This document shows positions 14,415 to 21,252 of a stretch of 64,000 nt of DNA, one piece after another. The translations under genes and the position numbers were made by a program. The DNA comes from Luteolibacter sp. SL250 (lineage in GTDB: Bacteria > Verrucomicrobiota > Verrucomicrobiia > Verrucomicrobiales > Akkermansiaceae): positions 4,526,001 to 4,590,000 of the forward strand of contig NZ_CP113054.1 in the NCBI RefSeq assembly GCF_026625605.1, given 5' to 3'. How positions within the stretch are numbered: the first letter of the stretch is position 1; each line of letters opens with the position of its first letter. Below the pieces are notes generated by a model. That model was not told the origin of the DNA, searched no databases, and was given only the letters and a program-made list of their open reading frames with translations.

Positions 14415-15719
14415 TCAATGAAGGCCGTGGCACTCCGCGAAGGAGGCTGCGGCCTTCTCGTTGATGGGATCATCCTTCGGCCAGCGTTCATAAACCTTCC
14501 GGATCGTCCGGTCTCTCCGCTCGCCCGCCGGTAATGTTTCCGCCCACTGCGACGCCGTTTCAGGGTCATACTGCGCCACCGCCTCCGCATACGCCTGCGC
14601 CGCGACGTCCTTCATCGTTCCTGCGGATGCCTCCTGCAGCCATTCTCCGGCAGCCATGTGGTCCGCCTCCACCCACGAGGTGAACAACCCGCCGATCTCC
14701 GCTTCCGACTGAACCACAGGGATATTCCGCTCCACCCATCCGATCCACCTCCCCGCGGTTTCTCCCTTCAATTTCCCGAACATCCCCGCCGTCAGTGCAT
14801 CGAGTTCGGGACCGTCGAGATGCGCACCGTCCATCCATCGCTGCGCCCCGGAGGTTCCCGCAGCCACCAGTTGATCGGCAAAGGCGCCGAAACCACCAGC
14901 CATCGCCTCGTTCCGTTGTTTCGCTCCGCCCATGCCCTGCAGATACCCGCGGAGCGCTCCGAGCATGCGATCCCTTTCCTCCGGCGTGCGCGCCGCCCGC
15001 ACAATGGATGCCACCGACTTGTCATCCGCCTGGAGCCCGAGGTCTCGGATCGACTGGAACGCCAGCACTGGATCCCTGGCCGCGATCTGATAAAGCACCA
15101 CCCGCCTGGTCTGTCCGGAAATGTGATCATCGAAGCGGGCGCTTTCCGACTTCAACCAGGTGATCGCCTTCCGCGGATCATCCCTCGCCATGGAGATCAA
15201 TGAGTCCCCGATCACCTGCCCCTCCATATCCCTGAAAAGCGACCATGACTTTTCCGCTTCCCGGTTGGACGCCTCCGACAAAAATCCAATCGCAAGCTCC
15301 GGTCGGTAGGACGCAAGTTTCAACATGCATTGCTGGAGAACGAATCCCCATGGGTGCTCATGTGGGACCTTTCCCGTCATGTATTCCCGTACGATGAACT
15401 CCGCTTCTGCCGCATCCATGGTCAGGAGCCGCTCCAGCACGTGTGACCATGCCGCCTTCCGATCCGCGCTGTCGTCCGGAAGAGCACCGAATTTCCGATA
15501 GCAATCCATCGATTCGATTGCCGATCGCTTCGCCACTTCACCCCGGTCGTCTCTCCTCCCGGCATCATCAGGGCCGCCGGACCTTGAAAACCTGGCCGGC
15601 GAATCCGCCCCACTTGCCCGGGCTACGTGCGCCAGTGAATCGATCCGCCAACCGGCGAACAGCCCGCCGGCGACGATCACCACTGCCGCGAGCAGCGAAA
15701 CTTTCATCGGATGATCCAT
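14415..15719 (-). CDS. Exported helical-repeat protein coupled to the sigma-factor gene
   Basis: 434 residues. An N-terminal hydrophobic signal/anchor (MKVSLLAAVVIVAGGLFAGW) follows an alternative ATG four codons upstream. The rest is helical with DPxxAxxW motifs: DDPRKAITWLKSES, ARDPVLAFQSIRDLGL and QYDPETASQWAETLPAGERR. It belongs to the same family as the protein at 5330 and as the extracytoplasmic part of the product of 15724-17682. Its ATG lies 4 bases after the stop of that sigma-factor gene, so the two are almost certainly co-translated. Function is unknown; periplasmic location is inferred from the N-terminus. Confidence 0.75.
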   Translation of the reverse strand: MDHPMKVSLLAAVVIVAGGLFAGWRIDSLAHVARASGADSPARFSRSGGPDDAGRRDDRGEVAKRSAIESMDCYRKFGALPDDSADRKAAWSHVLERLLTMDAAEAEFIVREYMTGKVPHEHPWGFVLQQCMLKLASYRPELAIGFLSEASNREAEKSWSLFRDMEGQVIGDSLISMARDDPRKAITWLKSESARFDDHISGQTRRVVLYQIAARDPVLAFQSIRDLGLQADDKSVASIVRAARTPEERDRMLGALRGYLQGMGGAKQRNEAMAGGFGAFADQLVAAGTSGAQRWMDGAHLDGPELDALTAGMFGKLKGETAGRWIGWVERNIPVVQSEAEIGGLFTSWVEADHMAAGEWLQEASAGTMKDVAAQAYAEAVAQYDPETASQWAETLPAGERRDRTIRKVYERWPKDDPINEKAAASFAECHGLH

Positions 15720-15723
15720 ACGT

Positions 15724-17682
15724 TCATTCCAGTGCTTCCAACACCTCCGCCCTTCGGACGGGATCCGTTATCTCCGCCGCCATTGCCCTCGCCTCATCCT
15801 TCTTTCCCCGCGCCCCCTTTGAGCAGAGAAAGGCGACCAGAAATTCGTCATTCCCATCCGTCCCACGGAACCCCGCCGCCAGGGATGCGATCTCGGAAAA
15901 GCTGGCCGGGCCGTGTTCCAGGGCTTTCCCCAATGCTTCACCAATCACCCGGTCCGCCTCCACCGGAGCCGTCCGCTCCAACCATGCGCGGGTCTCCGCC
16001 AGATCCGCCATGGTGAGCTTCCCGTTCAACGGCTTGTTCGAAATCGAGCCGATGGCCGCCATCTCACAGATGACCTTGCGCTCGTCCGGCGTCGCCTTGA
16101 TCCTTTCCAAATAGGAATCCACCCGCCGGGATTCCATATTCCAAGCGACAATACCGAGGGTCTTCCGGCATTCCTCAGGCGTCAGATGCCTTCGGGCCAG
16201 CCCGACATAGGCAGCCTCACTGGCCTGATCATAAATCGACAGTTCGCCGATCATCCCCATCACCTCCATTCTTGTCTTCGGGGACATTCCCTCCAGCCTG
16301 GAAGATGCGGCTTCGAGATCCTTCACAGACATCTGCTCCAGCAACGCTACTTCCAGCCGCATCCTGAGAGGATTCTTCCCGTCCAGACGCTTCGTCTCCA
16401 GTTTGCCTTCCGCCACCTGCCGGTCGAGCCATGCAGCAGCCGCCACGGGATCTTTCTTCGCCATGGCAAGCACCGCATCCTTCATCATGTAACTGTACCG
16501 GGGCTTGGCCACCTTTTCCTCCGCCAGGGCCAACACGACAGCAGGATCTTTCTTCATCAGAAGGTAAAGGATACTCGATTCTATCATGATTCGCGCCGTC
16601 TCCTCCATGTCCACCTTTGCCACTTCGTCCAATTCCGCCACCAACCCTTCAACGGAAAGCTTTCCCAAAAGATAATCCAGAGAGGTATCTTCGATCGTGC
16701 TCATGGTCACGAGTCTCCCGCTGATATGCTTTTCCGTCATCATCGCTCCGATCTTCTCCCATGCGATGCACTTCCCTCCACCCATCGGAACGACATTCCT
16801 CCGGGATGACCGGACGGCATCTCCAGCCGTCCCGCCGGAACCACGCAGGTGGCCCGCACGAGTTGACACTTCTTTCTTCCCGACGGCCGCGAGGGCCTCC
16901 CATTTCGGAGAAATCCAGAAACCTACCACGATCAACGCGATGACGGGCGGGACGAATGGCGTGGCTTTCATAACGGTGGTGGCGGTGGCCAGTGTGGCGG
17001 TGGAGACCGGGCCTTGTGCGGCACAGGCTGCCAGTGCCTTTGAGGAAAGGGCATGGATAGTGCCAACCGGGGCGTTCAGCTCCGCGGCGAATCCAGCCGT
17101 CAGGACCATGTTGAAAGCCCCGCCCGGCTCATATCCACGGCGGGCGAGCTTCGAGCGCAGGCGGGCCGTCGCCCGTTCGAGCCGCTTCCTCGCCGCATCC
17201 GTGGCGATCCCCAGCCTCGCCGCCATCTCCCCGACGCTCATGGCGTGGTAGAAGTGGAGCAGCACGGTTTCCCGGTCTTTTTCCGGAAGCGAGGCGATCG
17301 CGTCGTCGATGACGGGGCGCAATTCCCGCCAACCGTCTCCACCCTCCTGTGCCGGGGTCGTTTTCATTTCATCGAGAAGTCGCTGCCGCTTCTTGATCTC
17401 ACGGAGGTTCCTCCTCATGAGATTCTTCGCCTGCATGACGGCGGTGATGTAGAGCCACCCGGCAAGGGTGGGGCGTGTGTGGAGAAAGGCGGCCCGCCGC
17501 GCCAGCAGGATGAAGACCGCCTGGGATACCTCCGCCGCCGCCCCGTCATCCCCTGCCACCCGCCGTGCCGCTGCATGGACCATCCCGGCATGGCGCTCCA
17601 CCAGCGACCGGAACGCCGCCTCCCTGCGGGTCGTCAGCCAGTCCGCGAGAAGCTCGCCATCGGTGGGTTCGGAATTCGCCAT
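15724..17682 (-). CDS. ECF sigma factor fused to a transmembrane segment and a C-terminal helical-repeat domain
   Basis: 652 residues in one uninterrupted frame. Residues 1-90 carry sigma region 2 (RSLVERHAGMVHAAARRVAG; AEVSQAVFILLARR; AGWLYITAVMQAKNLMRRN). Residues 120-182 carry region 4 (ASLPEKDRETVLLHFYHAMS; GEMAARLGIATDAARKRLER). A linker rich in Ala/Thr follows, then one membrane segment (PFVPPVIALIVVGFWI, about 243-258), then about 390 residues of helical repeats containing KKDPVAAAAWLDRQVAEG. Typical ECF sigma factors have about 190 residues. C-terminally extended ECF factors occur in Planctomycetes and Verrucomicrobia. Tethering the sigma part to the membrane with a periplasmic sensor is my inference. 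It is coupled to the paralogous gene at 14415-15719. Confidence 0.85.
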   Translation of the reverse strand: MANSEPTDGELLADWLTTRREAAFRSLVERHAGMVHAAARRVAGDDGAAAEVSQAVFILLARRAAFLHTRPTLAGWLYITAVMQAKNLMRRNLREIKKRQRLLDEMKTTPAQEGGDGWRELRPVIDDAIASLPEKDRETVLLHFYHAMSVGEMAARLGIATDAARKRLERATARLRSKLARRGYEPGGAFNMVLTAGFAAELNAPVGTIHALSSKALAACAAQGPVSTATLATATTVMKATPFVPPVIALIVVGFWISPKWEALAAVGKKEVSTRAGHLRGSGGTAGDAVRSSRRNVVPMGGGKCIAWEKIGAMMTEKHISGRLVTMSTIEDTSLDYLLGKLSVEGLVAELDEVAKVDMEETARIMIESSILYLLMKKDPAVVLALAEEKVAKPRYSYMMKDAVLAMAKKDPVAAAAWLDRQVAEGKLETKRLDGKNPLRMRLEVALLEQMSVKDLEAASSRLEGMSPKTRMEVMGMIGELSIYDQASEAAYVGLARRHLTPEECRKTLGIVAWNMESRRVDSYLERIKATPDERKVICEMAAIGSISNKPLNGKLTMADLAETRAWLERTAPVEADRVIGEALGKALEHGPASFSEIASLAAGFRGTDGNDEFLVAFLCSKGARGKKDEARAMAAEITDPVRRAEVLEALE

Positions 17683-17700
17683 TCACCTGTTATCTGTCCT

Positions 17701-17719
17701 GTCACCCTTCCGGAGGGAC
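17701..17719. promoter_or_regulatory. Imperfect inverted repeat upstream of the sigma-factor gene
   Basis: GTCACCCT and AGGGAC arms flank TCCGG, with a small bulge, 19 bases upstream of the sigma-factor ATG at 17682. Next to it is an A/T-rich stretch (17720-17760). It could be an operator or part of an ECF-type autoregulated promoter. The evidence is only the symmetry and position. Confidence 0.25.
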
Positions 17720-17820
17720 AAAAAATTTCGATGATCCTGAATTTTTCCCGACCCGCAGGGCATCGTTTTTCAAAGTCGCCATTGGAGGATCAATCGGGTG
17801 GGTGGAAAATTTTAACGGAT

Positions 17821-19075: not shown

Positions 19076-21112
19076 TCAGAAATTCACCTTCACGCCGGCC
19101 ACCACGCCGCGGCCATGGAGCGGAACACTGTCCTTGAGGAATGAGGTGTGCTCGCGCGCCTCCTCATCGGTGAGGTTCACCCCCTTGATGTAAAGGTCAG
19201 TGGTCACCGGACCGCTGGTGATCGTGTAGCTGAGGACGGCGTTGAACATCACGTAGCTGTCCGTGGGCAGCTCGTTGTCCGCCGTTTCCGCCTGGTGGGC
19301 GGAGAACACGCTTTCAAGACGTGCCCCGAAGGCACCCTTTTTGTAGTCCAGTGCGGCACTGGCATGGAAGGGGGAGATGCGTGGCAGGGGGTCGCCCGTT
19401 TTCCGGTCGTTGGCCTGCACATAGTCGGCGCGCAGATCCACATTCAGGTGGTCCTCCGCGGTCTCTCCGGCAATCACCGGTCCCAGCAGATGGAAGGTGG
19501 TCTCCACCTCCGCGCCGAAGAACTCCGCATCCGTCGCCTGGTAGGCGTAGATGGGCAGACCGCCGAGCGAAACACCACCCGTCGGGAACAGGCCGATGTA
19601 GTCGTTGAAGCGGTTGTAGAACACGGTCACCGCTCCGGTCACGCTGCCGGTGACCTTGCGGAAGGAAAGATCGAAGCCGAGCGACTTCTCCGTGCGGAGT
19701 CCGTCATCACCCACTTCGAAGGCACCCGTCGCGACATGGGGGCCACCGGCATAGAGTTCCTGATAGGTCGGCGCGCGCTCCGTCCATGAGGCGGAAAGGG
19801 CGACCTTGTAGTTGTCGTTCGGCGTGAAGACGATCCCGAGCGATCCGCTCAGGGTGTCGAAGTTCCTTTCCCGGTCCGGGCCGAAGTCCACATCCGCGCT
19901 CGCCTTCGCGTTGGTATGGTCGTAACGGAGGCCGCCCTCCAACCTCCAGTGATCCGAAAGCTCCATCTCCTCGAAGAGGAAAGCGGAGTGCCCGTGCGTC
20001 AGCACATGCGGGAGGAACTTTTCATCGCCCACCGCCTCGAAGTCGCTGCGCTGGACCTGATAACCGAAGGTGCCTTGCAGCGGTCCCCATTTCTCATGGG
20101 AAAGCTCGACCCGGCCATCATAGCCATCGTTGGTGAAGGTCGTCCCCGGATCCGGTCCTTCGAACTCGGTGTGTTCGTAGTTGGAGGTGGCGAAGCGGTA
20201 CTTGATCTCCCGGATGCCCTGGAGCGGCTCATAGAACGCCCCGTGGAAATCCCAGCGGCGCTGGCGCATGTCGATGCTCACTTCCTTCTCCACCGGTGAA
20301 CCGTAGTCCGTGTCAAAACCGGAGTAGGCCAGGCCGAAGTAGCCGCCATCCCAGACATAGGACGCCCCCGCGGAGAAGCCTTCCGTGTTGAACCAACTGT
20401 TTTCCAGCGTTCCGCGTTCATCGTTTTCCGGGGCACCCGGATTCGCGTCACGGAAACGCTTCGAGCGGGCGTAGCCGGGAATCTCCAGTTCCTCGATGTT
20501 CCGTTTGTAACCTTCCAGGTGCCACGCGAACCCGCCGACGCCGCCCTCCAGTTCGAAGTCCGATGCGATGCCGTTGTCCGCGGAGCTGGCACGGGTGCCC
20601 ACGCTGCCCCTCACCCATTCGCCGATCCTCTCGGACGGGATGCGGTTGTCCGTGACATTCACCACGCCGCCGATGGCATTCGGCCCGAAAAGCACGGTCG
20701 CCGGGCCGCGGACGACCTCGATCTTCGAGACGCTCACCGGATCGAAGCTCACCGCATGGTCGAAGCTCGTCGCGGAGGCATCGATGGTGTTGAGGCCGTT
20801 CTGCAGCACCCGGATGCGGTCGCCGTCCAGGCCACGGATCACCGGGCGGCTGGACGCCGGGCCGAAGTAGGTCGAACGGACGCCGGGCTGCGTCGCCAGC
20901 GTTTCGCCGAGGGTTGCCTCAAGGTTGAGGAGAAGGTCCCTCCCTTCCAGCACGGTGACCGGCTGCGCCAGATCGGACGCGCTTTCCCCGAGCCTGCTGG
21001 CACTCACCGTGATCTCCCCCAGTTCCGGAGCTTCCGGGGTGGTCTGAGCGGATGCCACCGAGGGCACCAGGAACGCGGCGGGGATGAACATCAGGAAACG
21101 GGAGATCTTCAT
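19076..21112 (-). CDS. TonB-dependent outer-membrane receptor, ZnuD-like
   Basis: A 678-residue protein with a signal peptide (MKISRFLMFIPAAFLVPSVA, cleavage after about 22), a TonB-box-like segment (GEITVSASR, about 33-41) and a plug domain (LGETLATQPGVRSTYFG; PVIRGLDGDRIRVLQNGLN; VEVVRGPATVLFGP-type motif near 120-135). A 22-strand-type barrel ends in an aromatic residue (VAGVKVNF). The plug sequence resembles the ZnuD/zinc-type receptor family, but I see no His-rich loop, so the substrate is uncertain. The ATG at 21112 begins the signal; an upstream in-frame start at 21136 is less likely. It is divergent from the gene at 21253, with TTGACG at 21158-21153 as a possible -35 element. Confidence 0.9.
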   Translation of the reverse strand: MKISRFLMFIPAAFLVPSVASAQTTPEAPELGEITVSASRLGESASDLAQPVTVLEGRDLLLNLEATLGETLATQPGVRSTYFGPASSRPVIRGLDGDRIRVLQNGLNTIDASATSFDHAVSFDPVSVSKIEVVRGPATVLFGPNAIGGVVNVTDNRIPSERIGEWVRGSVGTRASSADNGIASDFELEGGVGGFAWHLEGYKRNIEELEIPGYARSKRFRDANPGAPENDERGTLENSWFNTEGFSAGASYVWDGGYFGLAYSGFDTDYGSPVEKEVSIDMRQRRWDFHGAFYEPLQGIREIKYRFATSNYEHTEFEGPDPGTTFTNDGYDGRVELSHEKWGPLQGTFGYQVQRSDFEAVGDEKFLPHVLTHGHSAFLFEEMELSDHWRLEGGLRYDHTNAKASADVDFGPDRERNFDTLSGSLGIVFTPNDNYKVALSASWTERAPTYQELYAGGPHVATGAFEVGDDGLRTEKSLGFDLSFRKVTGSVTGAVTVFYNRFNDYIGLFPTGGVSLGGLPIYAYQATDAEFFGAEVETTFHLLGPVIAGETAEDHLNVDLRADYVQANDRKTGDPLPRISPFHASAALDYKKGAFGARLESVFSAHQAETADNELPTDSYVMFNAVLSYTITSGPVTTDLYIKGVNLTDEEAREHTSFLKDSVPLHGRGVVAGVKVNF

Positions 21113-21252
21113 GGAGGTGGTGCCGCTGACTCTCATCCAGCGAAAAACCGTCCGTCAACTACCTTTGTATGTTTTTTGCATTTGATAAAAACTTACCTCA
21201 ATCAAACTTTCCGAAATTGATCCGCGAAGAGATCCGGTGGAGAGTGCCATCG

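Follow-up and report, generated by a model that had tools for sequence, protein, structure and literature searches.

How is a sigma factor controlled when it appears to be held at the membrane by its own chain and is followed directly by a gene for a relative of its own C-terminus? This question is raised by a locus of Luteolibacter sp. SL250 (Verrucomicrobiota; Akkermansiaceae), which we analyzed in a window of 64,000 nucleotides (assembly GCF_026625605.1, contig NZ_CP113054.1, positions 4,526,001 to 4,590,000). In what follows, A denotes the C-terminal domain of the sigma protein, sigma-A the whole of that protein and B the protein encoded by the second gene. The features of the locus are collected in Table 1.

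Table 1. Features of the sigma-A/B locus, in window coordinates
Feature	Position	Strand	Basis and remarks
Sigma-A gene, 652 aa: ECF sigma domain, single hydrophobic segment and helical C-terminal domain	15724..17682	-	ORF, Pfam, NCBIfam
Sigma-70 region 2, residues 27-93	17404..17604	-	PF04542 (sigma70_r2), E 5e-7
Sigma-70 region 4, residues 125-175	17158..17310	-	PF08281 (sigma70_r4_2), E 4e-11; alignment with M. tuberculosis SigE
Predicted single transmembrane segment, residues ~237-258	16909..16974	-	Kyte-Doolittle peak 237-253
A domain, all-helical, predicted extracytoplasmic	15727..16908	-	AlphaFold2; no Pfam family
B gene, 434 aa: A-domain paralogue with N-terminal membrane segment	14415..15719	-	ORF, hhalign, AlphaFold2; start more likely 15707
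N-terminal hydrophobic segment of B, residues 7-23	15651..15701	-	Kept in nearly all of 67 B relatives
Putative ECF-type promoter element TTTTTTGTCC-CTCCGGAAGGGTGACA-GGACAG upstream of sigma-A	17694..17725	-	Conserved upstream of relatives' sigma genes

An ECF sigma factor with a predicted membrane anchor

Both reading frames lie where the initial annotation had placed them, and the anatomy that it had read from the longer one, namely sigma regions 2 and 4, one membrane segment and a helical C-terminus, is borne out by Pfam, hydrophobicity and AlphaFold2; its extracytoplasmic placement of the C-terminus agrees with the prediction given below. The matches to sigma70_r2 and sigma70_r4_2 both exceed the curated Pfam cut-offs, NCBIfam assigns the protein to the sigma70-ECF superfamily above its cut-off, and the nearest solved relatives by sequence in the PDB are SigE and SigL of M. 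tuberculosis, of which SigE aligns over both regions. Regions 2 and 4 are likewise present in 12 of 12 aligned members of the family. By these defining features sigma-A is an ECF (group 4) sigma factor. No anti-sigma domain was recognized between region 4 and the membrane segment, and no Pfam anti-sigma or zinc-finger family was detected in the protein as a whole; a Pfam search with residues 190-652 returned nothing above cut-off, the FecR-like CSS periplasmic domain included.

A strong hydrophobic segment is found at the equivalent place directly after the sigma domain in all 21 sigma-A proteins, in 20 of which it is the sole such segment. Its sigma side has more net positive charge and is nearly devoid of acidic residues, with 0.05 flanking acidic residues per protein as against 1.43 on the other side (21 sigma-A proteins). 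Since the sigma domain is necessarily cytoplasmic and a single membrane segment follows it, the ~390 residues of the A domain beyond that segment are predicted, from hydrophobicity and flanking charge, to be extracytoplasmic.

The flanking genes of the sigma-A/B pair, which are named here from reading the sequence, are a convergent arginine decarboxylase-like gene and a divergent NrdR-like one. A gene that presumably, by the same kind of reading, encodes a TonB-dependent receptor-like protein (19076-21136) lies near the sigma operon with other genes between, and there is no sign that it belongs to the system.

The C-terminal domain and the second gene product are paralogues

Profile-profile comparison of A with B using hhalign gave a probability of 98.7% (E 4e-16) over 328 collinear columns that include the membrane segment, and a hidden Markov model of either family retrieves members of the other. 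These profile comparisons bear out the paralogy that had been claimed and show it to be full-length and collinear. The accompanying claim that both are built from the same repeats holds in terms of profile homology and predicted fold, but repeats are scarcely visible by motif, as clear DPxxA-type motifs number only two in the sigma C-terminus and four in B. The AlphaFold2 model of A (mean pLDDT 77.2) is all helical without strands and that of B (mean pLDDT 81.6) is likewise all helical, with good confidence in the folded part of each.

No family in Pfam or NCBIfam covers the A domain or B. Neither library finds an anti-sigma domain in B, so this adjacent gene does not qualify as a separate class I anti-sigma gene. 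A sequence search for solved structures related to A or B yielded none that is convincing, the best candidate for B (C5HR2_4r, E 1.5e-4) matching over part of the protein. The same is true of Foldseek searches against the PDB, in which the best match of B was a designed PPR protein (E 0.0026, TM about 0.23) and the best match of A had an E of 0.0086. Ranked sixth for the A model (window 15727-16995) was the dimeric transmembrane anti-sigma factor DdvA (8rw5, E 0.053, TM 0.23), a sub-threshold match that we record as a lead only. A coiled-coil stalk after the membrane segment, suspected by eye in several relatives, was discarded when the heptad signal proved not clearly above that of shuffled sequences (mean z 0.3-0.9). 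Some B proteins carry an extra C-terminal motif, PGFVxSPFTGKxxEVxGxPSGTLVxDP...YFRIP (L062:3290-4318, L066:3057-4367, L071:4479-5846), which is absent from the B of the window.

Two details of the second gene call for revision. The initial annotation had taken B to be exported, and its conserved N-terminal hydrophobic segment is better read as a membrane anchor. The gap of four bases given between the genes is correct for the listed reading frames (15720-15723), but the initiator conserved in 15 aligned B relatives is Met5 of the listed frame, and because of this the true gap is probably 16 nt. In 67 A-B pairs the gap lies between -4 and 34 nt, and in 15 of them the stop and start codons overlap by 4 nt; translational coupling of the two genes is likely in view of these short distances, and it would not be peculiar to the copy in the window.

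The A-B pair is a conserved unit with or without a sigma domain

We searched all 73 genomes available for the genus with profiles of sigma-A and B and compared the positions of the matches. B lies directly downstream and on the same strand of 15 of the 17 sigma-A genes; both of the remaining sigma-A genes sit at contig ends, and in one of them (L100) the start of a B gene can be seen before the contig stops. In other genera of the family, B follows sigma-A in 7 of 8 cases. The linkage in related genomes, on which the initial annotation had staked its reading, thus holds, and this recurrence across the genus and beyond it means that the pair is not due to chance. The genus also has 37 sigma genes of the same family whose C-termini differ, and B adjoins only 3 of these.

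The pairing is real, then, but it is not peculiar to the sigma factor: B also comes directly after A genes that lack a sigma domain, in 60 of 61 instances in the genus and in 23 of 26 in the other genera of the family. As B stands next to sigma-less A as reliably as it does next to sigma-A, what is conserved is the two-gene A-B module, in which A may or may not carry a sigma domain as its head. In the genome of SL250 itself, three A-B pairs have the sigma domain and two are without it. Among 289 genomes of the phylum Verrucomicrobiota, strong matches to B are confined to this same family, whereas A-like domains extend to one or more further families of the order. The sigma-less pairs have no consistent conserved neighbors, and no match pointed to a phage origin.

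A candidate promoter element specific to the sigma-bearing copies

Upstream of the sigma-bearing genes we observed a conserved element of roughly the form AAATTTTTTGTCCG(C/T)TTTC, ~8 bases, CGG(A/T)(C/G)A, which ends a short distance ahead of the start codon. The window contains a single copy of TTTTGTCC-N16-GGACAG, immediately upstream of the sigma gene, and shuffled sequences contain 0. We then counted TGTCC within 110 nt upstream of each class of gene, with the expectation taken from shuffles. It precedes 22 of 25 sigma-A genes (3.0 expected) and 20 of 28 other sigma genes of the family (3.4 expected), as against 3 of 51 sigma-less A genes (5.7 expected) and 2 of 67 B genes (3.7 expected), counts that describe a pattern and are not to be read as a p-value, since the element was spotted by eye and then counted on the same, mutually related sequences. 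The sigma70-like TTGAC[AG] shows the reverse distribution, being present upstream of 26 of 51 sigma-less A genes (2.0 expected) and of no sigma-A gene. The pattern is explained most simply if these sigma factors transcribe the operons that encode them and the housekeeping sigma factor transcribes the free A-B pairs. The specificity of the element for the sigma-bearing copies suggests a working, autoregulated sigma factor. A search of the SL250 genome with two promoter patterns gave no clear set of regulon targets.

Sigma genes of the same family, most of them with the same type of promoter, carry other domains in the place of A, which makes A-B one of several modules on these sigma heads. One such gene bears a serpin as its extracytoplasmic domain (L091:6007-8043; PF00079, E 3e-94), and in another (L080:5164-8430) repeated carboxypeptidase-regulatory-like domains replace A.

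A proposed mechanism and its alternatives

The initial annotation had seen in this locus a one-component system, in which the sigma factor is held by its own sensor. That is probably wrong, as the conservation of the A-B module with or without the sigma domain looks more like a sensor of two proteins. What we infer instead, as to A-B binding, topology, silencing, proteolytic release, signal and regulon alike, is a membrane-tethered, autoregulated sigma factor under the control of a two-subunit periplasmic A-B sensor, a proposal whose chances we consider about even. According to it, sigma-A and B would form an autoregulated signaling operon, in which one segment holds the ECF sigma domain at the inner membrane and the helical A domain lies on the far side. 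B would be a membrane-anchored paralogue of A, and the two would most likely form a heteromeric periplasmic sensor that keeps the tethered sigma factor silent. A periplasmic signal may then alter the A-B complex such that the sigma domain is freed or activated; by analogy with IutY (see below), release would probably proceed by trimming of A followed by intramembrane cleavage. The freed sigma factor would transcribe its own operon from the TGTCC...GGACA-type element, along with other targets. The periplasmic binding or competition that the initial annotation had suggested for the partner is plausible, as are the holding of the sigma factor at the membrane and its release. Our searches found no protease or signal for this system.

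Among other explanations, we regard it as possible, though unlikely, that A-B has a function of its own as an envelope scaffold or adaptor complex, and that the fusion does no more than anchor the sigma factor or bind it to that site, with no regulation by A-B. Most A-B pairs are indeed sigma-less, and half of these have sigma70-like promoters, so A-B must act without a sigma factor; however, the fused form is found in several sigma clades with B kept adjacent, and the fused operons bear the sigma-type promoter, both of which speak against this reading. Quite unlikely, in our estimate, is an asymmetric arrangement in which B alone is a regulatory ligand-binding protein and A only its docking site, in the manner of RseB on RseA and not of a symmetric heteromer. 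The invariant columns of B are concentrated in its C-terminal repeats (W360, L361, P397), as those of a binding surface might be, but A and B are collinear and about equally long, and RseB is a soluble protein, whereas nearly all copies of B have a membrane segment of their own. It is improbable that the hydrophobic segment does not span the membrane and that A is a cytoplasmic regulatory extension like that of the TPR-bearing ECF42 factors: helical repeat extensions are known on those cytoplasmic sigma factors (PMC8103513, PMC8999054), but the segment of sigma-A is kept in 21 of 21 relatives and aligns with the membrane segments at the N-termini of free A and B. Finally, the idea that the sigma domain is a decayed passenger in a gene that works only as an A protein, which the many A genes without any sigma domain might bring to mind, is very hard to credit, given the retention of regions 2 and 4 in every aligned member and of the sigma-specific promoter element.

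Relationship to known systems

In the RpoE-RseA-RseB system of E. coli the sigma factor and the membrane anchor are separate proteins, and RseB is not a paralogue of the periplasmic domain of the anchor. The likeness to it lies in a periplasmic protein, RseB, that binds the membrane protein controlling an ECF factor (PMC8103513). IutY of Pseudomonas putida (ECF243) is a sigma/anti-sigma fusion of cell-surface signaling, the sigma domain of which is released once Prc has trimmed the periplasmic part and RseP has cleaved the protein, and it combines a cytosolic ECF sigma factor, one membrane segment and a periplasmic regulatory domain in one chain, as sigma-A would with its predicted topology (PMC5411451; PMC8999054). 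IutY, however, has a periplasmic anti-sigma (CSS) domain and answers to a TonB-dependent receptor, whereas the predicted periplasmic part of sigma-A is an unrelated helical domain that is paired with a paralogous second gene.

Large C-terminal repeat extensions are shared with ECF57 and other C-terminally extended ECF factors of Planctomycetes within the PVC group (PMC8999054). The description of ECF57 that we consulted in this source names WD40-like repeats together with two conserved cysteines in sigma2 and sigma4 and mentions no paralogous partner gene; sigma-A, by contrast, has no WD40 match in Pfam, its model is all helical, and residues 1-183 of the protein in the window contain no cysteine. 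The actinobacterial groups ECF48, ECF52 (SCO4117) and ECF53 resemble it in the C-terminal fusion to membrane segments, with proteolytic activation proposed for them (PMC8999054). They differ in having a zinc-finger anti-sigma domain and other periplasmic parts, none of which was seen in sigma-A, and no A-B pair is described for them. ECF42 shares a helical repeat (TPR) extension on an ECF factor, but no membrane segment is described for that group, whereas one is conserved in sigma-A, which has no TPR match in Pfam.

Judged from its sequence, sigma-A is thus not a relative by membership of ECF57, ECF42, ECF48/52/53 or IutY, the defining C-terminal domains of which it lacks, and by analogy it would work like a membrane-tethered ECF factor, a kind already known. 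In the papers that we searched, we found no description of the obligate paralogous partner or of the same pair without a sigma head; the group may already bear a number in the full ECF classification of 2021. More tentatively than the mechanism itself, we propose that A-B may be a portable extracytoplasmic sensor of two subunits, largely restricted to one family of Verrucomicrobiota and used either alone or wired to ECF heads, and that it would represent a previously undescribed form of transmembrane signaling, with the sigma factor serving as one of the subunits of a heteromeric receptor made up of paralogues. Membrane-tethered ECF factors are abundant in PVC bacteria and almost unstudied, and IutY is the sole case with a worked-out release mechanism in the literature that we searched. 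The comparison set provided by fused and free A, with and without B, together with a candidate self-recognized promoter, makes the switching of a membrane-tethered sigma factor directly testable.

History of the fusion

A and B fall on opposite sides of one branch (SH-aLRT 87) in a tree built jointly from 69 A and 65 B sequences, and the two halves mirror each other, with a branch-distance correlation of r=0.96 that was matched in 0 of 1000 permutations. This fits a single old A/B duplication, after which the two genes were inherited together. Linked genes are expected to give mirrored trees, and these speak for co-inheritance without being proof that the products bind each other. Changes between the fused and the free form number 10 in a quick tree and 6-9 in a careful one, and no bootstrap tree has a single fused clade; in an AU test, one clade of all fused A domains is not rejected (p 0.58). 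Parsimony for the ancestral state at the root of A gives 10 versus 11.

Local arrays and an atypical fusion were also observed. One contig (G028:C144; L136:4405-14664) has four sigma-less A-B pairs in a row, with one B shortened. At another locus (L057:5548-16774) two free A-B pairs, a sigma-A/B pair and another sigma gene of the family follow one another in tandem on one strand. A third (L147:1882-5163, genome G061) has a frame of 1093 aa in which a long N-terminal stretch precedes the sigma domain and the C-terminus is weakly A/B-like.
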